Assembly: GCA_021159885.1 (NCBI GenBank)
Contig: JAGHDO010000029.1
Span: 1 to 53,305 of the forward strand
Length of the DNA: 53,305 bases
Source: Synergistota bacterium
Lineage (GTDB): Bacteria; Synergistota; GBS-1
Direction of reading: 5' to 3'
Every line of letters starts with the position of its first letter. Position 1 is the first letter of the stretch. Positions 22,849 to 52,858 of this stretch are shown here, in pieces. The notes under the pieces are model-generated. The model had not been told where the DNA came from and searched no databases. It worked only from the letters and a program-made list of their open reading frames with translations. The translations under genes were made by a program, and so were the position numbers.

Positions 22849-23700
22849 ATGAGATACTATTTAGCACCAATAGTGCTTTTTCTCTCAACGCCGGTAGTAC
22901 TTCACAAGGTTTTCGCAGGAGAGATAATAGTTAAGCCCTATCTGTTCAAAATAGGGAATTTTGAGCTTAGATGGTATGCGCTCTTGATAATAACCGGCTT
23001 TCTTTTAGGGGCTCGCTTGGTATACAAGCGAGCCCCTAAGTATGGCCTTAAGGCAAGAGATATAGACCAGCTTTTAATATTTGGATACATCGCAGGCTTA
23101 GTCGGAGCGAGGGCATACTATGTTATATTTCGCTGGGATTATTACTCAAAGAGACTCTGGGAAATCCCGGCTTTCTGGCACGGTGGATTAGCCATACACG
23201 GGGCTTGGATAGGAGCCCTCATAACCGCGATAATATTCGTAAGAGTAAAAAGAATTCCTTTCCTTCGCCTCGCGGATCTTTGCGTATTAGGCTTTCCACT
23301 GGCACAGAGTATAGGGCGATGGGGAAATTTCTTCAACTATGAAGCTTTTGGAACGCCAACGGATCTACCGTGGAAGCTTTTTATTCCTTACGGCGCGCGC
23401 CCACTTGCCTACAAATCTTTCTCGTATTTCCACCCAACATTCCTTTACGAATCGGCATGGGATCTCTTCGTTTTTATACATCTCCTACAGCTCGAGAAGA
23501 AAAATCCACCAACGGGAGCGCTCTTTTTTAGATACCTGCTTCTCTACTCAATTGGAAGGTTCTTCATAGAGTCTTTAAGAACAGACAGTTTATACCTCGG
23601 ACATATCAGAGTTGCCCAGCTCGTCAGCTTGGTTTCTATCGCTATAGCTCTTTACTTTGAAAGAAGGATTCGAAAGAAAACCCTTTATAGTGAGAGCTAA
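22849..23700 (+). CDS. lgt: Phosphatidylglycerol:prolipoprotein diacylglyceryl transferase
   Basis: This 283-residue membrane enzyme lipidates the Cys of prolipoproteins. It has the Lgt signature GRWGNFFNYEAFG, the HGGLAIHGAWIGA motif, HPTFLYES and a C-terminal GRFFIESLRTDSL, within several transmembrane helices. An N-terminal hydrophobic stretch of about 25 residues precedes the usual start region. It begins four bases after the secreted repeat protein gene and probably depends on coupled translation, since its own ribosome site is weak. Its 3' end overlaps the convergent uvrC by 111 bases. Confidence 0.93.
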   Translation: MRYYLAPIVLFLSTPVVLHKVFAGEIIVKPYLFKIGNFELRWYALLIITGFLLGARLVYKRAPKYGLKARDIDQLLIFGYIAGLVGARAYYVIFRWDYYSKRLWEIPAFWHGGLAIHGAWIGALITAIIFVRVKRIPFLRLADLCVLGFPLAQSIGRWGNFFNYEAFGTPTDLPWKLFIPYGARPLAYKSFSYFHPTFLYESAWDLFVFIHLLQLEKKNPPTGALFFRYLLLYSIGRFFIESLRTDSLYLGHIRVAQLVSLVSIAIALYFERRIRKKTLYSES

Positions 23701-25092
23701 CTTTTTACCGATGCCATCAACCTTAGCTATCTCATCAACCGAGGCTTTCCTTATACCTTCTACCGACTTAAAGGTTCGAAGAAGGTTTTTAACTCTTTCC
23801 TTGCCAACACCAGGGATATCCTCAAGAGCCGTCTTAAGCAGGGATTTCTCCCTGAGCTTGCGATGATAGCTTATAGCGAATCTGTGTGCCTCATTTCTGA
23901 CTCTTTGCAACACACGAAGCGCAGGAGAGTCCTCAGGGATCCTTAAGGGAGTAGAATTCTCGGGGAAGAAAACGAGCTCCTCTCTCTTGGCAAGCCCCAC
24001 AAGCGGGATATCAATCCCAACCTCCTCTAAAGCCCTCTTAGCCGAGTTCACCTGTGTTACGCCTCCATCAATTAAAATCAGATCCGGAATTCCCTCATCA
24101 CGATGTTTTCCATATCTTCTCCTGATTACTTCCGCAATCATAGCAGGGTCATCTATACCTTCTACATCCTTTATCTTATATCTCCTATACTTCCTTTTAA
24201 AGGGAACACCCCCATGAAAGCAGACGACAACGCCCACCGCCTCTCTTCCGTAAAGATTAGAGATATCTATCCCCTCGATAACATAGGGAAGCCTTTTTAG
24301 CCCAAGATAATCCCTAAGCTTTAAAAGGGCGGTTTCCAGATAATCCACGGGAGCTTCAAGAGGTATTCTCGGTTGCTTAAAAACTTTCTCCAAAGCTCTT
24401 ATCTGGTCCCTTATTCTCGCCGCCTCTTCAAATCTGAGCTCCTTAGCAAGCCTTTCCATCTTCTCGGTAAGCTTGGCAATAAGCTCTCCTCTTCTACCTC
24501 CAAGAAATAGAGCGAGATCCTCAACCATTTTTCTATATTCCTGCTCCTTTATACCACCCACGCACGGTCCTTTACACTTGCCCATATAGTAATTTATGCA
24601 AGGTCTATCTCTCTTAACGAGGCGGGAACAGCTCCTTAAGGGATAGAACCTCTCAATAAATCTAAGAAGTTCCCTCATCTTCCTGACCTTGGTATAGGGA
24701 CCAAAATAGAGATTGCCATCATCTTCCCTCAAAACCCTGGTTATCAGGATACGAGGAAATTCCTCGCTCATCGTCAAGCATACATATGGATATCTTATGC
24801 CATACTTAAGCATGGTGTTATACTTGGGCTTGTGCTTTCGTATAAGGTCCGCCTCCAGGATAAGAGCCTCAGCTTCCGTTTCAGTAGTTATATAAGTAAA
24901 AGAAGCTATTTCATCCACAAGTTTCCTTATCTTAGGGGAGAAATCAAACGAGCGCGTAAAATATGAGCTTACCCGCTTCTTCAATGAGCGGGATTTTCCA
25001 ACATAGATAACTTCTCCTTTTCTGTTCAGCATGATATACACGCCAGGGCTCTCAGGAAGCCTTAACGCTTTCTCCTTTAACTCATCCCTAAT
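23590..25092 (-). CDS. uvrC: Excinuclease ABC subunit C, probably with an ATT start
   Basis: This nuclease of the UvrABC repair system has an N-terminal GIY-YIG domain (PGVYIM...EVIYVGKSRSLKKRV), the Cys motif CINYYMGKCKGPCVGG, a UVR motif (MERLAKELRFEEAARIRDQI), the RNase H-like part with ISNLYGREAVG and DLILIDGG, and C-terminal HhH motifs (DIPGVGKERVK, VDGIGKKLA). The first ATG/GTG/TTG in frame is the GTG at 25041, which would cut into the GIY-YIG domain. The frame upstream encodes the expected DELKEKALRLPESPG. The best start is ATT at 25092, 11 bases after AAGGAGG, inside the 3' end of the upstream phosphatase gene. Confidence 0.9.
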   Translation of the reverse strand: MRDELKEKALRLPESPGVYIMLNRKGEVIYVGKSRSLKKRVSSYFTRSFDFSPKIRKLVDEIASFTYITTETEAEALILEADLIRKHKPKYNTMLKYGIRYPYVCLTMSEEFPRILITRVLREDDGNLYFGPYTKVRKMRELLRFIERFYPLRSCSRLVKRDRPCINYYMGKCKGPCVGGIKEQEYRKMVEDLALFLGGRRGELIAKLTEKMERLAKELRFEEAARIRDQIRALEKVFKQPRIPLEAPVDYLETALLKLRDYLGLKRLPYVIEGIDISNLYGREAVGVVVCFHGGVPFKRKYRRYKIKDVEGIDDPAMIAEVIRRRYGKHRDEGIPDLILIDGGVTQVNSAKRALEEVGIDIPLVGLAKREELVFFPENSTPLRIPEDSPALRVLQRVRNEAHRFAISYHRKLREKSLLKTALEDIPGVGKERVKNLLRTFKSVEGIRKASVDEIAKVDGIGKKLALTIKGFLSNPSFKVKSYSDRNQADELGNSDMSEV

Positions 25093-26030
25093 TGCTCTCT
25101 CAGCCTCCTTACGCCTCGCTCAACTTCCGAAAGAATTTCGTTATAAAGCCTTTTCGTCGATGCGGATATACCGGAAAGAAGTCCCTCAACGGACCAGTCA
25201 AGAAGTTTCCTATCATCATAAGGCGTTCCATAGGCATCCGTTATGGGAATTCCAGCCTCGTTCATTATCAGATTTATGGCTGAAAGATCATAGGGAAACA
25301 GCCCAACTGGTTTGCCTCCCGTTATCCTGTGAAACTTTTCCCTCAAAACGGGGAAATCCCTGTACAGCCTGTTTCCTATATCAACCCAGGCGTGGAACTG
25401 ACCCGTTAATATCCTGCTTAGGGAGTAGGTGCAGCTGTTTAAAACGAAGAACCCTCCTCTCATCGCTGACCTATTTATAAGCTCCTCCATAGATATGGAA
25501 ACCCACTGAGCAGGTCTTCCAACAAAGCCCAGGCTCCAGAACAAACCATCAAGGCTATCGGGCTCAACCGGATTAGGATCGTATATTTTCCCTTCCTCCA
25601 CTATCCAAGCTCCCCTTCCCTTCTCCGCCCAAAAAGCCCTGTCATCCTTAAGCTCGAGAAGACAGCCCAAGAAGACATCTTTATATTTAGCATCTTCAGA
25701 ATAATGACTCACTGCAACCGAAACCGTACAGGTTTCAAGCCCCGCTGCGGCAGGTCGAGTCCCATCTATAGGATCTATGATCAGGAGATAATCAGGATTA
25801 CCGCTTTTAACCAATCCTTTATCCTCCGTGCAATAAGCTACCTCTCCTCTTTCAACAAAGGGTTTTAATATACGCTCAACCTCTCGCTCTGCAACCAGGT
25901 CTATTCTATAGCTCACATCTCCGCTATAGGCTATCTTCTCTATTCTTTTAGCAAGCTTTGTTCCCAGAAAGGGCTTAACCGCACTTTTGACACCATGAGT
26001 TAGCTCCTCAAGCAGTTTCTTAAGATCCAA
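25077..26030 (-). CDS. Inositol monophosphatase / FBPase type IV superfamily phosphatase
   Basis: This 317-residue protein has the Mg-dependent phosphatase motif IIDPIDGTRPAAAG and, near the C-terminus, FPYDLSAINLIMNEAGIP, which corresponds to the second metal-site motif WD-A-G--EAGG. Family members act on inositol phosphate, fructose 1,6-bisphosphate or PAP, and the sequence does not tell which. The start is TTG ten bases after GGAGG. It is divergent from cysS. Its last 16 bases overlap the probable ATT start of uvrC, so the two are likely coupled. Confidence 0.82.
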   Translation of the reverse strand: MDLKKLLEELTHGVKSAVKPFLGTKLAKRIEKIAYSGDVSYRIDLVAEREVERILKPFVERGEVAYCTEDKGLVKSGNPDYLLIIDPIDGTRPAAAGLETCTVSVAVSHYSEDAKYKDVFLGCLLELKDDRAFWAEKGRGAWIVEEGKIYDPNPVEPDSLDGLFWSLGFVGRPAQWVSISMEELINRSAMRGGFFVLNSCTYSLSRILTGQFHAWVDIGNRLYRDFPVLREKFHRITGGKPVGLFPYDLSAINLIMNEAGIPITDAYGTPYDDRKLLDWSVEGLLSGISASTKRLYNEILSEVERGVRRLREQLGMS

Positions 26031-26078: not shown

Positions 26079-26106
26079 TATTCCAATCAAGGAGGTGAAA
26101 AAGCTT

Positions 26107-27522
26107 ATGGGAATAGTCGTTCAAAACACCTTAACAAAAAGGAAGGAACCTTTTAAAACAATAGAGTCAGGAAAGGTAAGAATGTACGTATGTGGTCCAA
26201 CGGTTTACAACTACTTTCACATAGGAAACGCACGGCCTTTTTGCATATTCGATGTAATAAGAAGATATTTGGAGTACAGAGGATACAACGTTATATACGT
26301 CCAGAATTTTACTGATATAGACGACAAGATAATAAAAAGAGCGAAAGAAGAAGGCAAAAGTTGGAAAGAGATAGCTGAAATCTATATCGAAGCGTATTTC
26401 GAGGATGCGGATGCGCTTAAGATAAAGAGAGCAACGCACTATCCCAAAGCCACAGAGCATATAAAGGAGATGATAGAACTGATTCAGAAGCTCATAGATA
26501 GGGGACACGCATATGTGGTAGAGGGCGATGTATATTACGATGTGTTAAGTTTTCCCGAATATGGAAAGCTTTCAGGAAAAGCGATAGATGAGCTTGAAGC
26601 CGGAGCGAGGATTGAGCCGGACCCCCGAAAGAAAAATCCTTTGGACTTTGCCCTCTGGAAAAGAGCAAAAGAGGGAGAACCTTACTGGGAAAGCCCCTGG
26701 GGAAAAGGAAGGCCTGGCTGGCACATAGAATGCTCCGCGATGTCGATGAAATACCTCGGTGAGACGCTCGACATTCACGCTGGAGGGGAGGACCTCATAT
26801 TCCCCCATCACGAGAACGAGATAGCCCAAAGCGAGGGAGCCACCGGAAAGACATTCTGCAATTACTGGCTTCACAATGGATATCTCCTGATAAATGAGGA
26901 GAAGATGTCCAAATCGCTCGGGAATATATTAACCGCAAGAGAATTAAGGCAGAGATATCCCGCAGAGGTCTTAAGAACCTTTATGCTATCCGCCCACTAT
27001 AGGCATCCTATAAACTTCAGCGATGAAAGCATAAGGCAGGCAGAAGGCGGGCAAAGAAGGATTCAAAACGCTTTTTTAACTCTTAAGGAAGCGCTATCCT
27101 CAAGCGAGCTATCCTCACCTTCATCGGGCGAGGATTACGAGTTTGAAGAAGAGGTAGAGCGAGCCAGAGCAAAGTTTGAGGAAAGTATGGATGATGACTT
27201 TAACACCCCGGAAGCCTTAGGAAGCATATTCGAGCTCGTGAAAAACACAAATTCGTATCTCAGAGAAACCCTAAATCCCAAGAAGAAACCGCTTGAGAAA
27301 GCGATAAGATTCTTAGAAGCGGTAAACGACGTTTTCGGAATAATAAGAACCGAGGAAAAGCTTCCCATGGATTTAAGCGAAATAGAGCGACTGATCAAAG
27401 AAAGAGAACAGGCACGTAAGGAGAAAAACTGGGAAAAGGCAGATTCGATAAGGGACTTCCTCCTTTCAAAGGGAATCATACTTGAGGACACACCAGGAGG
27501 AACGAGATGGAGAGTGAAATAG
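26107..27522 (+). CDS. cysS: Cysteinyl-tRNA synthetase
   Basis: This class I synthetase (471 residues) has [17 protein letters not shown] (zinc Cys plus HIGH-type motif), [36 protein letters not shown] with the zinc ligands, and [10 protein letters not shown] (KMSKS). A GTG at 26095 in frame overlaps the GGAGG site, so the ATG at 26107, 11 bases after it, is the start. It is transcribed alone, ending in a hairpin and a T-tract terminator. Confidence 0.95.
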
Positions 27523-51793: not shown

Positions 51794-52768
51794 TTAACTC
51801 TTTTCCTCAAAGAGGGCTTCTTTTTTCGAGACCTCCTTATCCTCAGGCCTCTTAAGCCCAAGACGCTCCAAAACAGCCCCCTCTATACTATCCAAGACCT
51901 CCGGATTAGCATCAAGATACGCCCTTACGGCATCTCTGCCCTGTCCGAGGCGATCCTCACCAAAGTAAAACCAAGATCCACTTTGCCTTATAACTCCCAC
52001 TGCTAAAGCGGCTTCGAAAACGCTCGAGGAGCGAGGTACCCCTACCCCGTATATTATATCGAACTCAGTTTGCTTAAATGGAGGCGCAACCTTGTTCTTA
52101 ACGACTTTAGCTCTTACTCTCGCCCCTATAATCTCATGGTCCTTCCTTATTGTCTCTCCTCTTCTAACCTCAAGCCTCACCGAGGAGTAAAATTTAAGGG
52201 CTCTTCCCCCAGTGGTAGTTTCACTGGGACCAATTTGGAACCCCATCCCTATCTTTTCCCTAATCTGATTTATAAATACCGCTATCGCTCTCGTTTTACT
52301 TATTATAGACGTAAGTTTCCTCAACGCCTGAGACATCAAACGTGCTTGCAGACCTACGTGAGCGTCGCCCATTGATCCTTCTATTTCCGCTTGAGGCACC
52401 AGCGCAGCAACTGAATCTATGACGACTACATCTACCGCCCCACTTCTTACGAGAGTTTCCGCTATCTCGAGAGCTTGTTCTCCACTATCCGGCTGAGAAA
52501 GAAGAAGATCCTCAACCTTAACGCCGACCGCCTTCGCGTACAGAGGATCAAGAGCATGTTCCGCATCTATAAAAGCAGCAACGCCACCGCTCCTCTGCGC
52601 GGAGGCGATTAAATGCAAAGCTACAGTTGTTTTCCCAGAAGCCTCCGGTCCAAATATCTCGACTATCCTCCCGCGAGGGAACCCACCCACCCCAAGGGCA
52701 ATATCAAGTGGAAGAATTCCAGAAGATATCACATCCACAGGACCTATACTTTTCTCTCCCAATCTCAT
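51794..52768 (-). CDS. recA: Recombinase RecA (coding sequence extends about 30 codons further upstream)
   Basis: RecA has Walker [36 protein letters not shown], the L1 loop and [11 protein letters not shown]. The ATG at 52768 gives only MRLGEK; the same frame upstream still encodes a normal RecA N-terminus ([20 protein letters not shown]), reaching back to a TAG at 52856-52858. No ATG, GTG or TTG lies in that frame. A GTG with an excellent GGAGG site, six bases away, exists at 52847-52849 region's upstream side (52856-52854) but is out of frame by one base because of a run of six A (52843-52848). See findings. Confidence 0.95.
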
Positions 52769-52858
52769 TATTGCTCCCTTTCCAAAAGCTCTCTCTATTC
52801 TACTAATTGCCTCTTTTAATATCTTTTCTCTGTCAACTTTTGTTTTTTCCCCACACTA

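Follow-up and report, generated by a model that had tools for sequence, protein, structure and literature searches.

Where does translation of uvrC begin in this DNA, when its reading frame holds no ATG, GTG or TTG between the TGA that closes it upstream (25120–25122) and the catalytic GVY motif? The locus and its surroundings in the window (the whole analysed stretch of 53,305 nucleotides) are as follows.

23590–25092, minus strand: uvrC, 500 amino acids when read from ATT, stop codon included in the coordinates.
25039–25041, minus strand: GTG, the first standard start in the uvrC frame, coding for the V of GVY.
25077–25079, minus strand: TAA, stop codon of the IMPase gene, whose last 16 nt overlap uvrC.
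25077–26030, minus strand: IMPase (inositol-monophosphatase-family) gene, 317 amino acids, first NTG a TTG, PF00459 with E 2.5e-12.
25090–25092, minus strand: ATT, putative start codon of uvrC, the near-cognate codon common to all four family members here.
25104–25110, minus strand: Shine-Dalgarno sequence AAGGAGG, 11 nt before the ATT, within the IMPase coding region.
25120–25122, minus strand: TGA closing the uvrC frame upstream, read directly.
26095–27522, plus strand: cysS, divergent neighbour of the IMPase gene, PF01406 with E 1.6e-138.

After the TGA, the uvrC frame continues with GCG AGG CGT AAG GAG GCT GAG AGA GCA ATT AGG GAT GAG TTA AAG GAG AAA GCG TTA AGG CTT CCT GAG AGC CCT GGC GTG TAT, and the ELKEKALRLPESPG segment is encoded between the TGA and the GTG at 25039–25041. 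The original prediction placed the start at the ATT, inside the end of the upstream gene and 11 bases after AAGGAGG, and held that the only standard in-frame start (GTG, 25041) would truncate the GIY-YIG domain. The coordinates bear out the spacing, and the GTG is indeed a codon of the catalytic motif itself. Gene finders restricted to ATG, GTG and TTG would cut 17 residues and part of this motif from the window UvrC.

Started at the ATT, the protein passes the equivalog cut-off of TIGR00194 (480 bits versus 285.45) and matches the Pfam models for GIY-YIG, UVR, the RNase H-like domain (UvrC_RNaseH_dom) and HhH. It is the sole GIY-YIG match in the window genome at E ≤ 0.001. Residue 2 aligns with residue 2 of the solved UvrC domain 1ycz, an entry that names UvrABC system protein C and which we take to be the Thermotoga maritima domain; on that assumption, the predicted agreement in N-terminal length with Thermotoga UvrC was recovered. 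Residue 3 likewise aligns with residue 3 of UvrC 1yd6.

A search for UvrC gave a match in 61 of 61 genomes, and loci were taken from 30 of them, namely the window genome, three further genomes of its family and 26 outgroup genomes of the same phylum. The family sample consists of four genomes from three genera, all of them multi-contig assemblies. An additional contig scan yielded 15 UvrC loci, of which two match the family genomes G003 and G001 and 13 are only 36–44% identical; the comparison of starts covers the 30 loci, with these 13 outside it. UvrC of the other three family genomes, which belong to two further genera, is 74–76% identical to that of the window. The proposed comparison with close relatives supported the ATT, as all four family genomes carry it in the identical column of uvrC, together with GGAGG 11 nt before it and the 16-nt overlap with the IMPase gene.

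These observations bear on the possibility that the assembly contains a wrong base or an indel that masks an ATG, GTG or TTG of uvrC. Such an error might be suspected in a genome assembled in 93 contigs, and recA in the window shows a possible frame problem. However, the same codon, spacing and overlap recur in the three other genomes, one error shared by all of them is implausible, and none of the four overlaps contains a homopolymer of at least five bases. An assembly error is thus barely credible as an explanation. In particular, since four of four genomes keep the ATT together with its Shine-Dalgarno site and the overlap, an indel hiding an ATG, a possibility raised together with the original prediction, is very unlikely.

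Standard codons are present further downstream and might start a shortened UvrC: the GTG at 25041 in the window, a TTG in G002 and G003, or the ATG of YLM/YIM. Yet no NTG before the GVY motif is common to all four family loci. The window GTG reads GTA in the other three genomes. The only such TTG of G002 and G003, five codons before the motif glycine, is CTT in the other two genomes and has no recognisable Shine-Dalgarno site before it in either locus, while uvrC of G001 offers no NTG at all until an ATG after GVY. Initiation at the GTG or the ATG would moreover cut into GVY or remove it, and the part of the protein at stake is conserved, nine of the 13 alignment columns that cover residues 5–17 being invariant among the four family proteins. 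A downstream start is accordingly very improbable.

The outgroup gives an independent idea of where uvrC usually begins. Of the 26 outgroup loci, 23 have an NTG 15–17 codons ahead of the glycine of the PGxY motif, and the ATT of the family lies at 16. A Shine-Dalgarno-like site was found before the NTG at 15–17 in 13 of these 23 loci and none was found in the other 10; several outgroup loci have additional NTGs, so that the true starts there are not all certain. The three remaining loci have NTGs at positions 20 and 23 (L006), 22 and 8 (L007), and 25 and 12 (L017). Taken together, the shared ATT, spacing and overlap, the lack of an NTG common to the four family genomes and the position at 16 make both an assembly error and a frameshift of the heptamer type unlikely.

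The latter reading would do without a start codon of its own for uvrC: ribosomes translating the IMPase gene would shift by −1 within the overlap and produce an IMPase-UvrC fusion, with GGAGG acting as stimulator. Both frames are open across 40–43 nt, the shift needed is indeed −1, and the internal Shine-Dalgarno-like site is conserved. On the other hand, an X XXY YYZ heptamer (the only shift type checked) is absent from the overlap in all four genomes, and the ATT already yields the usual N-terminal length of UvrC. Frameshifting is therefore considered improbable.

The spacing of the ribosome-binding site was compared with other genes of the family. Among 27 genes of G001 and G002 with a shared NTG and equal spacing from GGAGG, the distance is 7–10 nt in 20, 11 nt in one, more in four and less in two. 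At 11 nt, the spacing of uvrC is slightly long for the family, which counts against the ATT start. It also lends some support to initiation at a different non-canonical codon close to the shared ATT, or at the first of two ATTs in G003, where uvrC reads ATT ATT at its start. At a spacing of 8 nt, however, the codons of the four genomes are GCA, GAT, AGA and ATT, with no shared near-cognate codon, and this alternative is regarded as unlikely.

Conservation of the codon itself was assessed against other isoleucine positions. Within uvrC columns 2–470, 19 other columns encode isoleucine in all four genomes; six of them keep one codon, and none of the 19 has ATT throughout. Read in the IMPase frame, two bases of the ATT fall within a leucine codon, TTA, in every family genome, and IMPase could therefore account for part of the conservation of the ATT. 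From the comparison of the aligned genomes, it is very likely that the ATT start of uvrC is real and older than the split of the three genera.

How uvrC might have come to such a start is suggested by its neighbourhood. Upstream neighbours were read in 18 of the 26 outgroup loci, where divergent cysS (recognised by its N-terminal motif) lies directly beside uvrC in 10, another or unclear open reading frame in seven and none in one; L006, outside these 18, has only 191 upstream bases and no identifiable open reading frame. In all four family genomes, a CysRS motif lies about 1.1 kb from the uvrC ATT, upstream of it and on the other strand, with the IMPase gene between. Because cysS adjoins uvrC in these outgroups and is separated from it by the IMPase gene in the family, the IMPase gene probably entered between the two, and its 3′ end would now cover the ribosome-binding site and start of uvrC. 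The base after the ATT, the first of codon 2, is A in all four family genomes, and therefore any NTG in place of the ATT would read TGA in the IMPase frame. This TGA would remove the last four IMPase residues, which are LGMS, LRKN, LKKS and LRRS in the four genomes and are variable except for the leucine. The variability of three of these four residues argues against a constraint by the overlap. Two forces may keep the ATT, namely avoidance of TGA in the IMPase frame and a favoured low dosage of UvrC; the first suggests, as a possible cause of such starts, that the codon has to serve two overlapping reading frames.

With good confidence, the best explanation is that uvrC of this family is translated from AUU, in a manner that would be driven by the Shine-Dalgarno site, weak, linked to IMPase translation and repressible by IF3. 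The strong Shine-Dalgarno site would place the initiator tRNA (fMet) on the AUU, leaving the third base mismatched. According to an in vitro survey, initiator tRNA needs Watson-Crick pairs at the first two codon bases, whereas the third base may form certain weaker pairs, the weakest being excluded by IF3 (PMC10158994). AUU pairs with the initiator tRNA at its first two bases. Repression of non-canonical starts by IF3, including those of infC and sigR, has been described (PMC5472188). Counted between first bases, the IMPase stop codon follows the ATT at a distance of 13 nt, and ribosomes ending IMPase translation probably assist initiation at uvrC. Re-initiation after an upstream stop is reported to depend on properties of the initiator tRNA and to be helped by IF2, and extra IF3 is reported to lower it, less so where a Shine-Dalgarno site is present (PMC2268962). 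The outcome would be weak synthesis of UvrC, coupled to translation of IMPase and repressible by IF3 like that of infC. We infer from this that initiation at the uvrC AUU is Shine-Dalgarno-driven, weak and sensitive to IF3.

AUN starts seem to occur in other genes of the family too. In infC, ATT lies 8–9 nt after GGAGG in all four family genomes (L032, at G000:C67 near 24544, and L033, L034 and L036). No in-frame NTG precedes it in the window genome. The other three genomes do have in-frame NTGs, which fall within the GGAGG, ahead of it or about 2 nt behind it, at distances too short for the usual spacing; there an ATT start of infC is likely but not forced by the sequence. Three phylum outgroups (L035, L037 and L038) have ATA at a similar place in infC. 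In the mlaE gene (PF02405; L074–L077, at G002:C5:82234, G003:C82:2233, G001:C1:519504 and G000:C82 near 5250), the start is an ATA that immediately follows an in-frame stop, stands 10 nt after GGAGG and overlaps the stop codon of the preceding gene, in all four family genomes.

Both uvrC and the mlaE gene had already emerged from a smaller initial survey, as had infC in the window genome. The larger survey comprised 179 pairs of open reading frames from G001 and G002, of which 171 had a coding-type excess at the third position and eight were dropped. A conservation test on all 179 pairs flagged seven on both sides and three on one side; by reading, uvrC and mlaE are the only ones among them without an NTG where the conserved part begins. 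The Shine-Dalgarno test on the 171 pairs assigned 11 to a near-cognate codon only and 50 to a shared NTG with a Shine-Dalgarno site, and gave no signal for 110. When the 11 near-cognate pairs were read, three were judged to be real (uvrC, mlaE and infC) and eight to be internal codons with NTGs nearby. Three non-canonical starts in 171 pairs are a rough lower bound only. In 60,690 Listeria genomes, six of 2265 conserved genes were reported with fixed non-canonical starts (PMC13068326), a rate that allows no close comparison with that of the family, as the methods differ.

Separately, recA in the window (51794–52856, minus strand) has no in-frame ATG, GTG or TTG before its FGKGAIM segment. GTG triplets after a GGAGG lie one base out of frame, beside runs of G and A, and recA of the three family relatives has TTG or ATG near the same place. 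This oddity may be a sequence slip in the window genome or another odd start.

A habit of non-canonical starts across repair genes was considered and rejected, as each of the eight uvrA and uvrB loci offers an NTG start (the uvrA match of G003 spans model positions 1–132 only). More speculatively, the genes with AUN starts (infC, uvrC, mlaE and perhaps more) might form a translational regulon set by IF3 that includes a gene of nucleotide excision repair, which at present appears doubtful. If true, these genes would rise and fall with the level of IF3 and tie a repair enzyme to the state of the translation machinery. The three genes offer a small panel for asking whether AUN starts form a group controlled by IF3.

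A literature search for uvrC with an ATT/AUU or noncanonical start codon found no report among the papers listed, and the start described here would bring a DNA-repair gene into the group with conserved ATT starts. The original assumption that such starts are otherwise known chiefly from infC is slightly narrow, as AUU is also reported for pcnB and cvfC1, and other non-canonical starts for ccpN, rnhC and sigR. Escherichia coli infC, encoding IF3, starts at ATT (PMC5472188). Like uvrC here, it has this codon after a Shine-Dalgarno site; unlike uvrC, it encodes the very factor that rejects AUU and is autoregulated, whereas uvrC encodes a repair nuclease and its start overlaps an upstream gene. 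For Escherichia coli pcnB, an AUU start is reported, by the title of the report, to limit translation, and the likeness lies in the use of AUU outside infC, in a different gene.

In Staphylococcus, cvfC1 is described with an AUU and ccpN with an AUA start, both with a lower yield than from AUG (PMC13009471). They resemble uvrC in that the non-canonical start is conserved and preceded by an extended Shine-Dalgarno motif. According to the same report, their starts are backed by initiation profiling and reporters, whereas the uvrC start was identified by sequence comparison. In addition, cvfC1 heads its operon, while uvrC here is preceded by another gene and overlaps it. Listeria rnhC is reported to start with ATC (PMC13068326). 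Streptomyces sigR starts with GTC (GTT in two of 34 species), and its repression by IF3 is reported from experiments (PMC5472188). Similar to uvrC, sigR is stress-related, and its non-canonical start is conserved and served by an extensive ribosome-binding site; sigR differs in using GTC rather than ATT and in that its control by IF3 is experimental, while that of uvrC is presumed. The ATT start of uvrC belongs to a known kind, that of infC, pcnB, cvfC1, ccpN and sigR.
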